A DNA stretch of 64,000 bases from Anaerohalosphaera lusitana (GTDB taxonomy: Bacteria; Planctomycetota; Phycisphaerae; Sedimentisphaerales; Anaerohalosphaeraceae), in contig NZ_CP019791.1 in NCBI RefSeq assembly GCF_002007645.1, forward strand, positions 3,712,593 through 3,776,592, given 5' to 3'. The translations under genes and the position numbers were made by a program. The notes under the pieces were generated by a model. The model was not told the DNA's origin and did not search any database. It was given only the letters and a program-made list of their open reading frames with translations. Below are positions 48,944-62,720 of the stretch, in pieces (the first letter of the stretch is position 1; each line of letters opens with the position of its first letter).

Positions 48944-49159
48944 ATGGCGGTAAGCTACCAGGCAATAATCGACAAGATCGACCAGGCGATACTCGACGGC
49001 GTTGACGGGCCGGTGAAGTTTTCACTCAGCGGCCGCAGCTTTGAATACAACAGCCTGGACGAGCTGCTCAACGCCCGCGCGAAGTACGCCAGGCTCAACG
49101 CCGGCAAGAAACGCCCGGGCGGTGTACGCATCGCCAAGACCGTGGTGGGGGGATATTAA
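48944..49159 (+). CDS. gpW-like head-tail joining protein
   Basis: The start at 48944 has GGAG. The 71 residues read MAVSYQAIIDKIDQAILDG then VKFSLSGRSFEYNSLDELLNARAKYARL, the gpW fold (helix, hairpin, helix). In lambda, gpW lies between terminase and portal, as here. It plugs the portal after DNA packaging. The next gene starts five bases later. Confidence 0.8.
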   Translation: MAVSYQAIIDKIDQAILDGVDGPVKFSLSGRSFEYNSLDELLNARAKYARLNAGKKRPGGVRIAKTVVGGY

Positions 49160-49163
49160 AAAC

Positions 49164-50717
49164 GTGCGGATACCTTTTCTGAACAATCGAAAGAAAAAGG
49201 GCAAGCGGGCCCCCGGCCGCAAAGATATGGAGCGGCAGGTCCGCCAGGCCGTGCAGCGGTATTACGAGGTGGCAGCCAGCAACGCACAGACGATCAAATC
49301 CTTTGGCACCGCCCAGGCGGGCGACCCCAACGACTGGCTCAGCGACGATGTGCAGACGCTGAGGGCACGCGCGAGCTACGAGATCCGCCACAACGGTTAT
49401 GCAAAGGGCATGACGCGGACGCGGGCGAACGACCTGATCGGGACGAGGCCGAGACTGCAGTTTCGCAGCGGCAACGCCAAATTCGACGAGGCGGTCGAGC
49501 GTGAATGGGCACTGTGGGCGGGCACGAGTGACAACCCAGTGTGGGGAGTCGGCTATTGCGACGCCGAGGGCACCAAGTCGCTGAGCGATATATTAAAAAT
49601 TGCCTGCGCACGCCACCAGGACGACAGCGGCGACGGCTACATCATAATGACACGCGAGAGGCGAGGACCGGGCAACTGGCGGCAGCGAGGCGACCGGGGC
49701 GTGCGGCTGCGTCTGAGGCTGGTCCATCCGGATCGGATAATGACGCCCTGGGGAGTCGACGACGACAGCGTAAAGGACGGCATCGAGTACGACGCGAACG
49801 GCCGACCCGCCTATTACTACGTGATGAAGGAACACCCCAACTCCGCGACGGCGGATCTGGTGGGCAAGTACGAAAAGATCCCGGCAAAGTACGTGCTGCA
49901 CTATTTCGAATTCGAATACGCCGACCAGGCGCACGGCGAGCCGAGAATCACGCCGTCTCTGTGGACGTGGAACAAGATGCGGAGGTACACCGAGGCTGTG
50001 GTGGGCTCTGCGGAGCTGGCGGCGTGCCTGGCGGGGATCATCACCGGCGATTCCGACCCGGACGACGACGAGGTGCTCGATTGGGACACAGTGGAGATCG
50101 TCAAGAACGCACTGATGACCGTGCCCGGAGGCGGCGACATCCACCAGTTCAAGGCCGAGCAGCCCACAGGCACATACAAGGAGTTCAAGGCCGAGCTGCT
50201 CAATGAGGCGGCAAGGCCGTCGAACATGCCCTACAACGTCGCTGCGGGCAATTCCAGCGGCTACAACTACTCATCGGGGAGGCTCGACAAGCAGGAATAT
50301 CAGAAGGACACCGCCAACGAACGCCACGGCGTGGAGACGAGGATCCTGGCTGCGATCGCCGCCGAATGGCTCCGCGAGGCGATGCTGATACCCGGATTTC
50401 TGCCTTCCGCCCCGCCGGAGGTGCTGCGTAACGCACGCGGCGGCTGGTACTGGGACGGTGTGGGCCACGTGGATCCGCAAAAAGAGGCGAACGCGCAGGA
50501 AACCCGCCTGCACAGGAGCAAGGTGTCAAACTTCGCGGACGAATGCGCCAAGGACGGCAAGGACTGGCAGCAGGTGATGATCCAGCGGGCGAAGGAAAAG
50601 GAATTTGCCGAGAGTCTCGGGCTCAATTACGAGCAGGCGGCGGTCGCGGATATGCCGCCGCAGAATGGCAATGATGACCAGGACGATGATGACGAGGACG
50701 AAGACGATGAGCAATAA
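49164..50717 (+). CDS. Portal protein, lambda gpB family (GTG start)
   Basis: 517 residues from GTG at 49164; longer frames to the left overlap gpW. SNAQTIKSFG, DVQTLRARASYEIRHNGYAKGMTRTRANDLIGTRPRL and HYFEFEYADQAHGEPRITPSL are typical of lambda-type portals. Twelve copies form the DNA entrance ring at one vertex. The C-terminus is a strongly acidic tail (DDQDDDDEDEDD) that contains the ribosome site and start of the next gene. Confidence 0.9.
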   Translation: MRIPFLNNRKKKGKRAPGRKDMERQVRQAVQRYYEVAASNAQTIKSFGTAQAGDPNDWLSDDVQTLRARASYEIRHNGYAKGMTRTRANDLIGTRPRLQFRSGNAKFDEAVEREWALWAGTSDNPVWGVGYCDAEGTKSLSDILKIACARHQDDSGDGYIIMTRERRGPGNWRQRGDRGVRLRLRLVHPDRIMTPWGVDDDSVKDGIEYDANGRPAYYYVMKEHPNSATADLVGKYEKIPAKYVLHYFEFEYADQAHGEPRITPSLWTWNKMRRYTEAVVGSAELAACLAGIITGDSDPDDDEVLDWDTVEIVKNALMTVPGGGDIHQFKAEQPTGTYKEFKAELLNEAARPSNMPYNVAAGNSSGYNYSSGRLDKQEYQKDTANERHGVETRILAAIAAEWLREAMLIPGFLPSAPPEVLRNARGGWYWDGVGHVDPQKEANAQETRLHRSKVSNFADECAKDGKDWQQVMIQRAKEKEFAESLGLNYEQAAVADMPPQNGNDDQDDDDEDEDDEQ

Positions 50718-52992
50718 AAATCGCAAGAAACGCCGGAGCAAGGGACGCAAGCGGGTGATCGAGCAGCTCCGCAGCGAGAACGCACAGCTCAAGAATACTC
50801 CGGACGACGAGAAGCTCGCCGAGGAGATGCAGCAGCGGAACCTGACCACGCGGCAGTTTTCGGTTCGAGCGCAGACACTGGACGAGAAGGAACGGACGGT
50901 CGAGGCGGTGATCGCCACCGAGGAGCGGGTAGTGGTGCTGGACTGGCGTCGGTGGGAGCCGATCGAGGAGATACTGCGGATGGACGGGGTGGTTCTGCCC
51001 GACAGCCGGCAGGTGCCGATGTTCGACACTCACATGCGTTGGGGCGGCACGGCGTCGGTAATGGGCAGCACACGCGACATACACGTAGAGGGCGGCAAGC
51101 TGGTCGGGACGAATCACTTTTCGAGCAGGCAGGCCAGCGAAGAGGCGTGGACGCTCGTCAGAGAGGGACATCTGACGGACAACAGCATCGGATACCGGGT
51201 GCTGGATTACGAAAAGATCGAGCCGGGCGAGACCGCGACCATCGGCGGCAGAAAATACACCGCATCGCCGAAGATGGCGCTTCGCGTGGCGACCGAGTGG
51301 GAGGTGATCGAAAACAGCATCTGCCCGATCGGAGCGGACCGCACCGCCAAGAATCGCGGTGATCAACATACAGAGCAGGACAGGAAGCCAAATCAAAAAC
51401 AAAACCAAAACCATTTTCAAGTTCACAAAAAGCAGGAGAAACGAACCATGAAGTTCAATGAATGGCTGAAAGAGAGAGGGTTCGACCCGGAAACGATCAG
51501 CGAAGAGCAGCGAGCCAGCCTCGAAGAGCTCTACAAAGCTGAGCAGAGCCGGAGCGAACCGGAAACGGAACCGAAGACGAAGACGAAGAAAAAGACCGAG
51601 CCCGAGCAAGGCAGCCGGTCGGCAGGCGAGGACCCCGCGGCCATGCGCGAGGCGATCAAGGCCGAGATGGAGGCGGTTCGCGAACAAGAGCGCGCCGAGC
51701 GTGCCAGGGTCGACGAGCAGATCAGAAAGCTCGGCGAAGAGGTCGGCATCGAGCAGTCGCTGATAGACGATGCGATCCACGGCGGCAAGACCGTCGAGGG
51801 CGCACAGCGGTATTTTCTCGAAAAGATCCGCAGCGACCGACCGGAGGTAGGATCCGCACCGGCGATCATCAGCCGCGACAACACGGTCAACCGCGAGGTG
51901 ATCGAGGATGCGATGCTGCTGCGTGCCGGGTACGAAGATCAGGTGGTCGAAGACAGCAACGGCGAAAAGCGTGCCGACAAGGCCGATCGCTTCCGCGATA
52001 TGTCGGTGCTGGAGATCGCTCGTCAGTCGCTTCGCATGGCCGGTCAGCCGGTGCCCTACGGTACCGAAGAGGTCATTCGGGCGGCGTTCGAGATGGACAT
52101 GCGGGGATTCTCGAATTACTCGCTTTCGACGATGCTCGGCAACGTCGCCAACAAGTCGCTGCTCCGCGGCTACGAGCTGGTCAAAAAGACCTGGCAGGCG
52201 TGGTGCACGACCGGCAGCGTGAGCGACTTCAAAGAAGTCACGAGAAATCGCTTCACCCTCCAGGACGGCTTCCAGGAGGTCAAGAACGGCGGCAGGATCG
52301 ATCACACCACCGCGACCGAAGAGGCCGAGAAGTACAGCATCACGACCTACGCGCAGATGTTCGCGATTACCCGAAACGACATCATCAACGACGACCTGAA
52401 TCAGTTCACGAAGGTCCCGATGCACATGGGTCGAGACGCCGGTCTGCTCGCGGGCAAGCTGGTCTACGCAATTCTCACCGGCAACCCGAAGATGGGCGAC
52501 GGCAAGAGCCTGTTCGTCAGCGGCCACAGCAACCTCAACACCTCGACCGGCCTGACGATGGACAACCTCAAGAGCTCGATCACGACTTTTGAGAAGCAGA
52601 CGGACAAGGGCAGCAGAAACATCCGCCTGAGCCCGAAGTACATCATCGTGCCGTCGGCACTGTACTGGACGGCCAAGGAGCTGCTGCAGTCGACGCTGAT
52701 CGTCGCCACCGGCAGCACCGACGCGGTCAAGGGCAACAAGAACGTGGTCGCGGGCGAGGTCGAGCCGATCAAGGAACCGATCCTCAACGACGACTCGGCC
52801 ACCACCTGGTATCTGGCGGCGGATCCGAGCGAGGCCGACACCGTAGAGGTCGCTTACCTCAACGGCAAGCAGACGCCTACGGTCGAAAAGTTCCCGATGA
52901 CGCCGGACGTGCTGGGCGTGCAGTATCGGGCGTATCTCGACGTCGGTGCCAAGGCTCTCGACTGGCGGACGCTTCAGAAGAACACCGCGTAA
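50707..52992 (+). CDS. Prohead protease-major capsid fusion
   Basis: 761 residues starting 11 bases before the portal stop. Residues about 45-225 match the prohead protease of HK97-like (S78) type, with His109 in FDTHMRW and Ser160 in LTDNSIGYRV, and VIENSICPIGAD closing the domain. Residues about 230-400 are a charged coiled-coil region, probably the scaffold (EAIKAEMEAVREQERAERARVDEQI). Residues about 405-761 match the Mu gpT-like major head protein (VIEDAMLLRAGY, ITRNDIINDDLNQF). An internal start at 51448 could make scaffold-capsid alone. Confidence 0.85.
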   Translation: MSNKNRKKRRSKGRKRVIEQLRSENAQLKNTPDDEKLAEEMQQRNLTTRQFSVRAQTLDEKERTVEAVIATEERVVVLDWRRWEPIEEILRMDGVVLPDSRQVPMFDTHMRWGGTASVMGSTRDIHVEGGKLVGTNHFSSRQASEEAWTLVREGHLTDNSIGYRVLDYEKIEPGETATIGGRKYTASPKMALRVATEWEVIENSICPIGADRTAKNRGDQHTEQDRKPNQKQNQNHFQVHKKQEKRTMKFNEWLKERGFDPETISEEQRASLEELYKAEQSRSEPETEPKTKTKKKTEPEQGSRSAGEDPAAMREAIKAEMEAVREQERAERARVDEQIRKLGEEVGIEQSLIDDAIHGGKTVEGAQRYFLEKIRSDRPEVGSAPAIISRDNTVNREVIEDAMLLRAGYEDQVVEDSNGEKRADKADRFRDMSVLEIARQSLRMAGQPVPYGTEEVIRAAFEMDMRGFSNYSLSTMLGNVANKSLLRGYELVKKTWQAWCTTGSVSDFKEVTRNRFTLQDGFQEVKNGGRIDHTTATEEAEKYSITTYAQMFAITRNDIINDDLNQFTKVPMHMGRDAGLLAGKLVYAILTGNPKMGDGKSLFVSGHSNLNTSTGLTMDNLKSSITTFEKQTDKGSRNIRLSPKYIIVPSALYWTAKELLQSTLIVATGSTDAVKGNKNVVAGEVEPIKEPILNDDSATTWYLAADPSEADTVEVAYLNGKQTPTVEKFPMTPDVLGVQYRAYLDVGAKALDWRTLQKNTA
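51434..51450 (+). promoter_or_regulatory. Internal ribosome site and start in the protease-capsid gene
   Basis: AGGAG (51434-51438), nine bases, then in-frame ATG at 51448-51450, opening MKFNEWLKERGFDPETIS. That is a natural N-terminus, and it follows a low-complexity linker (NQKQNQNHFQVHKKQEKR). Use would produce a 514-residue scaffold-capsid protein. Lambda C/Nu3 uses the same trick. Confidence 0.6.
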
Positions 52993-58891: not shown

Positions 58892-59803
58892 ATGTCATAC
58901 ACAATGCACACACTGGCAGGTGTTAAATACGACACCACGCTGATCAAGGGCATCACCGCCCAGACGTTTTCGCAGCAGCTCGTCGAGCTGCTCGAGGGCG
59001 GCAACGGCAGCGTCGACAACGGATTTTCCGCAGTGGCGGGCGCAGATCCGCAGTTGACATTTACCACCACCGCCATCAAGACCGCCCTGGCCACGCTGGG
59101 CGATATCGACGGCAAGGCGATCGCCGCCAGCAATTTTGTCATGTGGTTCCAGGCGGTAACGAACGGCGGCACACGCGAAGGCGCAACCAGCCATATCAAG
59201 GGCACCGCGGTGCAGGGTTTGATAATACCGCAGACGCTCACCCTGCCGCATCGAGGCAAGGCGACGCTGCAGTATCTGTGCATCTTCGTCAGCTCCGACG
59301 GATCCACCGCCCCGATCGCGTTCACCGGTTCGCAGTCACTGGACACCGGCGAGGGAGCCGCCGACGAGCTGTACACGCTGGGCGCATGCGAGATCAACGG
59401 CACAGCCGTCGAGGCCGTGCAGCAGGCGGTGATCGACTTCGGCATCACGCCCTGGACCGAAGGCGGCAGCGGCGACAAGTACCGCAGCTTCGCGGCCATC
59501 GGCACCCGCCAGCCGACCATCACGCTGGAAACCAGCCAGATCGGCAACATCACCTCCGACAACTGGGGCATACTCGGCGCCGCCCAGGACGAGACCGAGG
59601 GCTCCGAGAGCGTGATCAACGCGGCGGCACTGACCAACGGCGGTACGCTGGCGGGCACCAACGTATCGTTCACGGTCAACCGCGGGCGGATCCAGCTCGA
59701 ACCGATCTCCGGCAGCTCCGGTCAGCGGCTGGGCACCAGCATCAAAATAACGCCGATCTACGACGGCAGCAACGACGTGATCGCCGTCGGCGGGCTGGCG
59801 TAA
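58892..59803 (+). CDS. Major tail tube protein
   Basis: 303 residues with GAAAGGACG upstream. The pattern is that of tail tube proteins: a beta-rich core with a long insertion loop (TLPHRGKATLQYLCIFVSSDGS), AVIDFGITPWTEGG, and a final RLGTSIKITPIYDGSND strand set. Position before the frameshifted chaperone gene and the tape measure supports it. Confidence 0.75.
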   Translation: MSYTMHTLAGVKYDTTLIKGITAQTFSQQLVELLEGGNGSVDNGFSAVAGADPQLTFTTTAIKTALATLGDIDGKAIAASNFVMWFQAVTNGGTREGATSHIKGTAVQGLIIPQTLTLPHRGKATLQYLCIFVSSDGSTAPIAFTGSQSLDTGEGAADELYTLGACEINGTAVEAVQQAVIDFGITPWTEGGSGDKYRSFAAIGTRQPTITLETSQIGNITSDNWGILGAAQDETEGSESVINAAALTNGGTLAGTNVSFTVNRGRIQLEPISGSSGQRLGTSIKITPIYDGSNDVIAVGGLA

Positions 59804-59869: not shown

Positions 59870-60595
59870 ATGGGACAGTTTTTATATTTTATCGCGGCGG
59901 GCGAAAAGGCAGACACGCTCTGCTCGCGACTGCGTTCGATGGCCGAGCAGGGTATCGAGATCACCAGGCGAAAATGCAAAGGGCCCGAAGGCAAAGACGG
60001 CAGCATACACACCGCCGAACCGGCCAAACGAGCGATGTACCTTGAGAACGAGCAGACGTGGATGCCCAGCGCGTGCGGCGAATTCCATGTCGGCTACTAC
60101 GACGACGACCCGCCAGGGCCCGCCGACATCCAGCGGCCGGACGCGATCGGCGGCCATCCGGTCGAGATGTGCGGACAAAAATGGCTCGTGCCCGCGATAC
60201 GTTTGATCGACGGAGGGTCGGCACTGCCGCAGGCGATGACGTTCGAGAACGGCCGGGTGATCGCCGAGCCGATACCGAGATACGCCGAGCTGAGCAGCCG
60301 CGTGGAAAAATTCTTCGACGAGTTCGTCGCCGCCCACTCGCCCGACAGCGACGGCGTCGTGGGCACCTGGGCGGACCCGATGGGCTCGCTTGAGCTGATA
60401 GCGGACGCGATGAGCCTGAACTATTACATCGGAGTAAACGAGCTTGCCGTGCTCAGAGCGGTGACGACGCACTCGATGAAAGAGGCGATGATGGCGATGA
60501 TCGACTGGCCGACCGTCAAGAAAGCGGCGGAGGCGGAGGCTAAAAAAAAACGCACCGACGAAAACTGCGATACTGCCGATGGCGTGCCGGGCTGA
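59870..60595 (+). CDS. Tail assembly chaperone (G-like, zero frame)
   Basis: 241 residues. It starts after three GAAAAAGG repeats, of which the last provides the ribosome site. The fold is mixed, with a helical C-terminal half (SLELIADAMSLNYYIGVNELAVLRAVTTHSMKEAMMAM). It lies between the tail tube and tape measure, like lambda G. Nine A residues at 60542-60550 near the 3' end allow a -1 frameshift. The zero frame stops at 60595, while the -1 frame runs to 60654. Confidence 0.65.
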   Translation: MGQFLYFIAAGEKADTLCSRLRSMAEQGIEITRRKCKGPEGKDGSIHTAEPAKRAMYLENEQTWMPSACGEFHVGYYDDDPPGPADIQRPDAIGGHPVEMCGQKWLVPAIRLIDGGSALPQAMTFENGRVIAEPIPRYAELSSRVEKFFDEFVAAHSPDSDGVVGTWADPMGSLELIADAMSLNYYIGVNELAVLRAVTTHSMKEAMMAMIDWPTVKKAAEAEAKKKRTDENCDTADGVPG

Positions 60596-60654
60596 TACCC
60601 GGCTACCTGCCGACGTTCGCGGATGTGTACTGGTTTAACTGCGAGATGGGCTGA
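60542..60654 (+). other. Programmed -1 frameshift site and extension (GT-like)
   Basis: A9 at 60542-60550 spans three AAA codons of the zero frame. After a -1 slip the frame continues ACG CAC CGA for 34 codons to a TGA at 60652-60654. The added peptide ends RWRAGLIPGYLPTFADVYWF plus NCEMG and looks protein-like. A GCCGGG/CCCGGC hairpin lies about 35 bases after the slip site, around the zero-frame stop. The next gene begins six bases after the extension's stop. Confidence 0.6.
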
Positions 60655-60660
60655 TAAAAA

Positions 60661-61128
60661 ATGATCGTAATGGAACTTGAAATGCGGGGCTCGCTGGAGG
60701 GCAAGAAGATGCGGTTCAAGTCCGCCACCAAGGCCGCCCTCAAGACGGTGGTCAAGAGCTGGCACAAACAGGCCCTGCCAAAACATTTCAAGTCCGGCGC
60801 AAAGCGGCGGTACGACTACGACGCCCGGCACCCGCGTTACGCACGCTACAAACGCAGAAAGGGCCTGCCGCCGTTGGTGTTCTCGGGCCGGTCGAAAAAA
60901 CAGCTCACGCGAACGATCAAGGTCGTCGACTCCGGCGGCGTGGTGAAAGGAAAATTCGTCACCGACAACCGCGTGCGATACTTCTGGATGACACCGCCGG
61001 GCCATCCGAAAAAGGGCGAAGAACTGATCGCCACCAGCAAAAGCGAACAGCGGGACATGGCCGCGGCGATCACGGAGATGATCGAGGACGACCTGGAAAA
61101 AGTCAACGACAAAAAGGTGTACAAATAA
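60661..61128 (+). CDS. Phage morphogenesis-type basic protein
   Basis: 155 residues, strongly basic (KSGAKRRYDYDARHPRYARYKRRKGLPPLVFSG). The segment FSGRSKKQLTRTIKV followed by RYFWMTPPGHPKKGEELIA resembles phage virion-morphogenesis or neck proteins. Its stop overlaps the tape measure start. Confidence 0.55.
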   Translation: MIVMELEMRGSLEGKKMRFKSATKAALKTVVKSWHKQALPKHFKSGAKRRYDYDARHPRYARYKRRKGLPPLVFSGRSKKQLTRTIKVVDSGGVVKGKFVTDNRVRYFWMTPPGHPKKGEELIATSKSEQRDMAAAITEMIEDDLEKVNDKKVYK

Positions 61129-62720
61129 TGGCTGGAAAAATAGATTTCAAAATCTCGGCGGATCCCGACAAGGCCCAGGCGGACATGGCCAAGGTCATCA
61201 ACAAGCAGGACAAGATGATCGAAAAGCTCAAGTCCCAGAACAAACAGACCAAACGCACCAGCAAATCCACCAAGGGGCTGACCAGGTCGATTATGGAGAT
61301 AGGCGGAGGGTTCGCAGCCGGGCAGTTTGCGCTGGATAAATTTAAATCAGGGGTGGAGTTACTAAAAAACGAATATGACGATCTTATCCGCAAACAAGAC
61401 GAAGCCGCAAAAGCACATATGACGGTTGCCGAATCTGCTATCGATGCGATTCGCGGTTCAATGGGTTTCGCAGATCCGCAGGCGGCGGACAAGATGATCA
61501 GCGACATCTACGCGGAGGCGGCTAAGGCCCCCAACCTTTCCAGGCGGCAGGCGGTTGGAGCTTACGAGGTTTGGACAGGTGCTGATCCGACGTTCACAAA
61601 AGAAGAGGCTTTGCAGGCGGTCAAATTCTCATCGGGCACTACTGCGGGTGCTCGCGATAATACGGTCAAACTGGCCGGTCAACTTCAGCTTCTGCTCGGC
61701 GGCGACGTAGGGGACAATTTCGATCTTGCCCAGTTTCTCAGCGAGCAGGCGGGCGAATACGATGAGCAGTTACCCGCCGCCATGCAGGGTATATTTAAAA
61801 GCGTCAAAATGGGTGCCGACCCCGAAGATATGATAGCCAGGTTAACGACCGTCGTACAGCAGAAACAGAAACCACGGGCGCTATCAACATTTGCAAATTT
61901 AATGGCGCAAGTGGATAACAAGGCCCGCATCGAACGCAAACCAGGGCAGAAGCTGACCGAAGAACAAATACTGCAAAATCAGCTTCTGGACATGAGCGTG
62001 CCCGAGAGGATGGCATGGGCCGACCAAGCCAGCAAAGATGAGCTCGTAAAAGCTTTCGGCCCGACAGTTGCGACCGTCGCTCCGATGTTCGGACCAGGCG
62101 TCGGCGAACGCGGGCGAGCGGCATTAGATAAGGCCCGGGAGGAAGACTACTATGTCCGGACATTCCAAAACATGAAAAAAAGCGAATACGGCAGTCAGGT
62201 CCTCGCCGATCAGATTGGGCAGGCGGCCGCCGAAGACATTAAGCTGGTGGACAAACGTGCTGCAGCCGCAGGGCAGGCGCGTAAAACATTCGAAAACGTT
62301 TTACGAAATACCCCGGGGATTGGCTATACTGAAAAAGAAATAGCTCAAAAACTCCTGGAAATAGAAAGCACGATGGGCGATAGGCCCATTGAGCCGTTTA
62401 TACAGCAAGCCGAACTGATTAGAAGCCGCGTTTCTGATCCGACACTCGAAAAGAAACTGCCCGGTGGAACCGTGCCTGGTGTTTATTACACTAAGGAAGT
62501 TCCTAATCCCGCCTACAACCCGGAATCAGAGAAGCGATGGGAAGACGTTCTGCGATCTCTTGAAATGCAGCAACAGGCGTATCGGGAGCAAATGGAAATA
62601 CAAAAGCAGCAGCTCGAAGAGACTAAAAGCCTCAAGGAAGAGACCAAAAAGCTCAACCAGAACATGGAAAACAGCAATCAAGGCGTGCCGGTGGGCGGGT
62701 CGATGGGAGGGCTGGATTAA
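61128..62720 (+). CDS. Tail length tape-measure-like protein (short)
   Basis: 530 residues, helical throughout. It has an N-terminal coiled coil (KAQADMAKVINKQDKMIEKL), a Gly/Ala-rich hydrophobic stretch (SIMEIGGGFAAGQFALD, about 54-70), repeated helices and a C-terminal coiled coil (YREQMEIQKQQLEETKSLKEETKKL). At the usual 0.15 nm per residue the tail would be roughly 80 nm. The position agrees with a tape measure. Codon use is more AT-rich than neighbours. Confidence 0.65.
   Translation: MAGKIDFKISADPDKAQADMAKVINKQDKMIEKLKSQNKQTKRTSKSTKGLTRSIMEIGGGFAAGQFALDKFKSGVELLKNEYDDLIRKQDEAAKAHMTVAESAIDAIRGSMGFADPQAADKMISDIYAEAAKAPNLSRRQAVGAYEVWTGADPTFTKEEALQAVKFSSGTTAGARDNTVKLAGQLQLLLGGDVGDNFDLAQFLSEQAGEYDEQLPAAMQGIFKSVKMGADPEDMIARLTTVVQQKQKPRALSTFANLMAQVDNKARIERKPGQKLTEEQILQNQLLDMSVPERMAWADQASKDELVKAFGPTVATVAPMFGPGVGERGRAALDKAREEDYYVRTFQNMKKSEYGSQVLADQIGQAAAEDIKLVDKRAAAAGQARKTFENVLRNTPGIGYTEKEIAQKLLEIESTMGDRPIEPFIQQAELIRSRVSDPTLEKKLPGGTVPGVYYTKEVPNPAYNPESEKRWEDVLRSLEMQQQAYREQMEIQKQQLEETKSLKEETKKLNQNMENSNQGVPVGGSMGGLD

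Follow-up and report, generated by a model that had tools for sequence, protein, structure and literature searches.

A nine-adenine slip site in a putative tail assembly chaperone gene of an Anaerohalosphaera lusitana prophage, and its probable use by RNA polymerase

Frameshifting in tail assembly chaperone genes of phages is a textbook example of ribosomal recoding. The window analyzed here (64 kb of the Anaerohalosphaera lusitana genome) is a prophage in the single-contig genome (4.25 Mb) of this member of the Planctomycetota, and one of its tail genes ends shortly after a run of nine A's (A9). We asked whether this run produces a second, longer protein from the same gene and, if so, whether the reading frame is changed by the ribosome or by the RNA polymerase (RNAP).

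The A9 run and its tail gene context

The putative chaperone gene is an open reading frame of 241 amino acids (59870–60595, + strand), which corresponds to a short, G-like form in the zero frame. The slip site A9 (60542–60550, +), recognized from the sequence and from its relatives, is read as AAA AAA AAA (codon phase 0) and contains the heptamer A_AAA_AAA in frame at 60544–60550. The zero-frame stop TGA (60593–60595) is codon 15 past the run, and the zero-frame product ends in EAEAKKKRTDENCDTADGVPG. The −1 frame is blocked by a TAA at 60541–60543; it therefore opens exactly at the run and can be entered solely within it. Past A9, it remains open for 34 codons up to a TGA (60652–60654), which lies 6 nt ahead of the ATG of the next gene (60661). 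This extension (60551–60654, +), a T-like domain recognized by a conserved motif and its pN/pS, has the peptide sequence GLIPGYLPTFADVYWFNCEMG, and the trans-frame product (59870–60654, +) comprises 261 amino acids. The initial annotation had described three AAA codons 15 codons before the stop and a −1 frame of 34 codons filling the gap to the next gene, and both descriptions were exact. A9 is the sole A or T run of at least nine nucleotides in the window, and exact A9 runs occur 23 times in the host genome (both strands together). No Rfam families or tRNAs were found in the window.

The gene upstream encodes a tail tube (major tail) protein of 303 amino acids (58892–59803, +), for which the AlphaFold2 model (pLDDT of 86.5) had a two-domain fold. 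The model matched the T5 tail-tip core protein in Foldseek (E-value of 1.3e-9) and the tail tube proteins of SH-Ab15497, P74-26, and T5 in VIA (Z-scores of 17.1, 17.0, and 16.6, respectively). Downstream of the chaperone gene are a small gene of 155 amino acids (60661–61128, +), which is present in part of the relatives, and a probable tape measure gene of 530 amino acids (61128–62720, +). The latter was assigned by its position and by one of 11 counterparts, which matched PHROG 167 ('tail length tape measure protein') with an E-value of 0.0025; the protein of the window itself matched no profile. The order in the window is thus tail tube, chaperone, small gene, and probable tape measure, and the order from tube to chaperone is the same in the relatives. 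The earlier placement of the gene was borne out on the tail tube side by the fold of the neighbor (Z-score of 17); on the other side, the probable tape measure gene fits by its position. Elsewhere in the window, a lambda-type portal gene (49041–50717) adjoins an ORF of 795 amino acids (50605–52992), in which a weak match to a prohead protease (PF04586, under the cut-off) is fused to a major capsid domain (PF25209).

The chaperone model (241 amino acids, pLDDT of 91) had a helical domain at its end, just ahead of the run. Its most informative match in BFVD was a phage 'tail assembly chaperone' (probability of 0.99, E-value of 0.022). The zero-frame protein is larger than lambda G, and its N-terminal part is predicted to be beta-rich. 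Neither the chaperone nor the tube protein had a significant match to a Pfam or PHROG family, and tblastn with three proteins of the chaperone's family found no match among 50,697 phage records. A fold search of the chaperone against the PDB gave nothing with an E-value below 0.001, and VIA gave no row with a Z-score of at least 5; a new fold should not be concluded from these absences. Considering the gene context, the anatomy of the protein, and the frame switch together, a role of the G/GT type is likely for this gene, as a matter of function rather than of demonstrated homology to lambda G.

Conservation of the run together with the extension

We looked for the chaperone gene in genomes from the host's phylum, class, and family, in the IMG/VR database, and in GTDB contigs. 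It was found in 191 loci, 99 of which were non-redundant at 90% protein identity, and most of the pairs inspected shared 20–35% identity. The −1 extension and a slip site were present together in 83 of the 99 relatives, and the slip sites were A9 (68 loci), A10 (nine), A8 (one), A7 (two), and G_GGA_AAA or G_GGA_AAC (three). Eight complete relatives (L008, L033, L034, L051, L053, L105, L109, and L186) had neither, and their zero frame reached straight to the next gene. Five loci were cut or partial and were uninformative. In L211 and L213, the domain was found in the −1 frame with no clear slip site (zero-frame stops at 2251 and 2254, respectively). L219, the sole direction switch seen among the relatives, had A10 approximately 12 codons before its zero-frame stop at 2230 and carried the extension in the +1 frame. 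The same locus as in viral contig L037 was found in a Methylophaga MAG (Gammaproteobacteria; L108, DEXE01000003.1), and the family may reach beyond Planctomycetota unless this MAG was mis-binned.

The extension has the consensus KKK....RWL.YRRW..GL.P.Y.PT.ADL..L, and this motif was present in all of the first 63 loci, with P invariant, W in 57, G in 58, and D or E in 62. In ten pairs of relatives, the pooled pN/pS of the −1-frame extension was 0.36, indicating purifying selection, and amino acid identity in the zero frame was similar or lower. Outside the slip site, no A or T run of at least nine was found in the related loci (360,695 bp). As the run and the extension are kept across approximately 80 relatives, A9 reflects more than chance. 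Loss of the run or of the open −1 frame in related phages had been named as the observation that would speak against a frameshift; the relatives keep both, and those without the extension are also without the run. This co-occurrence supports the proposal of a −1 switch at A9 making a longer, GT-like form of the chaperone.

The extension might instead be translated separately by re-initiation, with no frame switch. Such an arrangement is conceivable in L211, where the extension could be a small gene of its own that starts at a TGATGA overlap, and in L219, where ATGATG lies right behind the run; some start codon precedes the motif in nine of 80 loci. No ATG, GTG, or TTG lies between the run and the motif in the other 71 loci or in the window, and the slip site would have no explanation, making re-initiation very improbable. 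Sequencing and replication are both prone to indels at long A runs, and the real gene could be one continuous frame that is disrupted by a sequencing error or by phase variation at the DNA level. Either process would give a mix of in-frame and out-of-frame states. The same out-of-frame state was found with runs of 7, 8, 9, or 10 A's as well as with GGGAAA sites in approximately 80 independent contigs, including complete single-contig genomes, so that an artifact or phase variation is, if anything, more improbable still. We therefore discarded all three of these alternatives. With a conserved site and motif, selection on the extension, and few start codons, we regard the frame switch at A9 as programmed, which is nearly certain on this comparative evidence.

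RNA polymerase or ribosome

The two mechanisms make different demands on the length of the run. For tandem slippage on A_AAA_AAA, the ribosome requires a minimum of nine, eight, or seven A's when the first A occupies codon position 1, 2, or 3 (phase 0, 1, or 2), respectively. Phase 0 runs were A9 in all 26 cases. The 34 phase 1 runs comprised 26 A9, seven A10, and one A8 (at least nine in 33), and the 20 phase 2 runs comprised 16 A9, two A10, and two A7 (at least nine in 18); exact A9 loci therefore numbered 26, 26, and 16 in phases 0, 1, and 2. Given the measured chance of 21% for an A after an AAA codon, the binomial p-values for at least nine A's were approximately 1e-21 in phase 1 and 6e-19 in phase 2, although these values overstate the independence of the loci, which are related. 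On a tree of 71 rows, in which many inner branches are weak, the phase and type labels required 36 changes, compared with 41.0 for shuffled labels; hence, changes of phase were frequent, whereas the length was retained. A run of about nine or more, as expected of programmed slippage, was found in 77 of the 83 loci (A9 or A10). In the whole family, no run exceeded ten, and A10 occurred in phase 1 (seven) and phase 2 (two) and in none of the 26 phase 0 runs. An upper limit on run length seems to exist, and it may depend on the phase.

A length of nine A's that is free of codon phase is what an enzyme with an RNA–DNA hybrid of 9–10 bp would impose, and it points to RNAP slippage over tandem tRNA slippage. 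PMC5009743 describes efficient slippage of bacterial RNAP in vivo on nine A's or T's and a hybrid of 9–10 bp. On runs of 7–11 A's, insertion is reported to exceed deletion in efficiency by a factor of two or more (PMC6260861), and insertion opens the −1 frame. We therefore propose that RNAP would slip on A9 and add one extra A to the mRNA, which brings the −1 frame into register for normal reading by ribosomes. One gene would thus yield two chaperones: the zero-frame form of 241 amino acids and, in the smaller share of expression events, a form of 261 amino acids that ends in 34 residues encoded in the −1 frame. If lambda G/GT is taken as the model, the part shared by both forms would bind the tape measure protein, while the extension would recruit tube subunits. 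RNAP slippage at A9 is probably the main route to the long form.

A purely ribosomal −1 shift, in which two tRNA-Lys slip in tandem on A_AAA_AAA in the manner of lambda G/GT and RNAP does not slip, has several observations in its favor. The heptamer is in frame at every A-run site, and the tail chaperones of other systems are ribosomal (PMC5009743). In all 83 slip-site loci, the extension is in the −1 frame, and only L219 has it in the +1 frame. This counts against RNAP slippage: both directions were found in confirmed slippage families such as the IS630 transposases, and the authors of GeneTack took a single direction as a sign of ribosomal shifting (PMC3711429). Shine–Dalgarno-like motifs were found up to 20 nt upstream of the run in 24 of 63 loci compared with 9.1 expected, an enrichment that is confounded by Glu codons. 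Six relatives have sites that are too short for efficient RNAP slippage. A ribosomal mechanism leaves unexplained why phases 1 and 2 have nine A's rather than eight or seven and why no A_AAA_AAG site with fewer than nine A's occurs among the slip-site loci; furthermore, it would have to operate without stimulators at the A9 sites.

Stimulators were assessed by comparing the folding energy downstream of the site with that of sequences that keep the −1-frame protein while swapping synonymous codons. A stimulatory stem-loop, usually though not obligatorily placed about 5–9 nt downstream, was not indicated for A9 in the window, where the z-scores were +1.2 (5–45 nt, p = 0.91) and −0.3 (5–60 nt). 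A GCCGGG/CCCGGC hairpin noted in the initial annotation is present as an inverted repeat (GCCGGG-CTGATA-CCCGGC; 60586–60603, +). It lies 35 nt past A9, and its strength does not exceed what synonymous codons would give; a role as a stimulator is not supported by these measures, and the repeat is probably not functional. At 5–45 nt past the heptamer, structure with p of at most 0.05 was found at two of the 77 A9 and A10 sites (mean z of +0.18), which is the level of chance, compared with four of the six short sites (Fisher p = 1e-4). The four are L044 and L068 (A7), L006 (G_GGA_AAA), and L029 (G_GGA_AAC), and each has a stem 5–6 nt downstream. Other folding ranges gave Fisher p-values of 3e-4, 0.04, and 0.10 and Mann–Whitney p-values of 0.003 to 0.04; the contrast rests on six short sites, depends on the range chosen, and was spotted after inspecting the data. 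It suggests that RNAP slips on the long runs and that the ribosome shifts frame on the short sites. Upstream stem-loops, which would stimulate RNAP slippage, were not detected (mean z of −0.20 compared with −0.19 to +0.01 in controls).

On balance, a purely ribosomal mechanism for the A9 loci is unlikely but deserves to be taken seriously, and RNAP slippage remains our preferred reading of A9. In the few relatives with short sites (A7, GGGAAAA, and GGGAAAC), it is probably the ribosome that shifts to the −1 frame to make the long form. The suggestion that the gene uses the same device as lambda is accordingly doubtful, as the phase-independent length of nine A's points to RNAP slippage, with a possible ribosomal contribution. 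If RNAP slips, GCAAAAAAACGC (A7 with the heptamer kept) would retain the ribosomal shift and lose RNAP slippage, while replacing A9 with AAGAAGAAG would abolish both.

Parallels in dnaX and other slippage genes

The same two mechanisms are used by dnaX: that of Thermus thermophilus relies on RNAP slippage at A9, and that of Escherichia coli relies on ribosomal frameshifting at A_AAA_AAG. The dnaX of the host (G000 C1:635430–636596, − strand; L235) contains TTA AAA AAA AAC, an A9 run, at codon 403 of the open frame. Among 29 placeable dnaX frames of the host's class (relatives L237–L265), 23, the host's own and 22 others, had a run (A10 in 20 and A9 in three), located at codons of approximately 385–475 in all phases. 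The shifted frames past these runs closed after a median of 8 codons (−1) and 7 codons (+1), compared with 36.5 and 21 codons in controls (p = 3e-7 and 1e-5, respectively). Stops in both frames fit RNAP slippage of the Thermus type and not a −1-only ribosomal shift, and such slippage looks widespread in the dnaX genes of this class. Past the chaperone run, the +1 frame is not closed early (median of 23 codons compared with 28, p = 0.24). The host has tRNA-Lys of both the UUU and CUU types, as does Thermus, and PMC5009743 suggests that having two tRNA-Lys may be why Thermus relies on RNAP slippage. The preferred run is A10 in dnaX of the host's class and A9 in the chaperone. PMC5009743 gives about equal dnaX products for Thermus and E. 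coli and approximately 30 G per GT for lambda; the preference for A10 or A9 may reflect a tuning of the yield.

The chaperone gene resembles lambda G/GT (reviewed in PMC5009743) in lying between the tail tube and the probable tape measure gene and in a short product and a −1-frame extended product. It differs in that no sequence similarity was found, the extension has only 34 amino acids, the zero-frame protein is larger and has a predicted beta-rich N-terminal part, and the site is A9, with its length kept whatever the codon phase, rather than a short ribosomal site. With Thermus dnaX, it shares a run of nine A's that needs no stimulator, a host with two tRNA-Lys, and, if our interpretation is correct, mRNA heterogeneity made by RNAP and orthologues elsewhere that use ribosomal frameshifting with a stem. 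Unlike in Thermus dnaX, the switch makes the longer product, the gene is a phage tail gene, and a low yield presumably suffices. Slippage on an A or T run of 9–10 nt also gives C-terminally extended proteins in Shigella spa13 and mxiE, and that of spa13 affects the expression of a needle-length regulator (PMC5009743, PMC6260861). These secretion-system proteins are unrelated to the chaperone and are not phage tail proteins. Frameshifted tail chaperones are known, and the cases reviewed in PMC5009743 are ribosomal. No RNAP slippage in a tail assembly chaperone gene was found in the literature searched, which included little of the subscription literature.

Judging from the comparison of these genomes, we lean towards a large, undescribed chaperone family in which the product ratio would be set by RNAP slippage on a phase-drifting run of nine A's, RNAP and ribosome would have replaced each other several times, and the dnaX of the hosts would be expressed likewise. 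As the family is missing from Pfam and PHROGs, annotation pipelines likely miss both the chaperone and its extension. The approximately 80 natural variants (A9 and A10 in three phases, A7, and GGGAAA, some with stems) constitute a ready-made experiment for separating the two mechanisms. If the A9 family uses RNAP, the control of tail length would have been solved at two steps of expression in one orthologous gene, providing a phage parallel to the dnaX genes of Thermus and E. coli.
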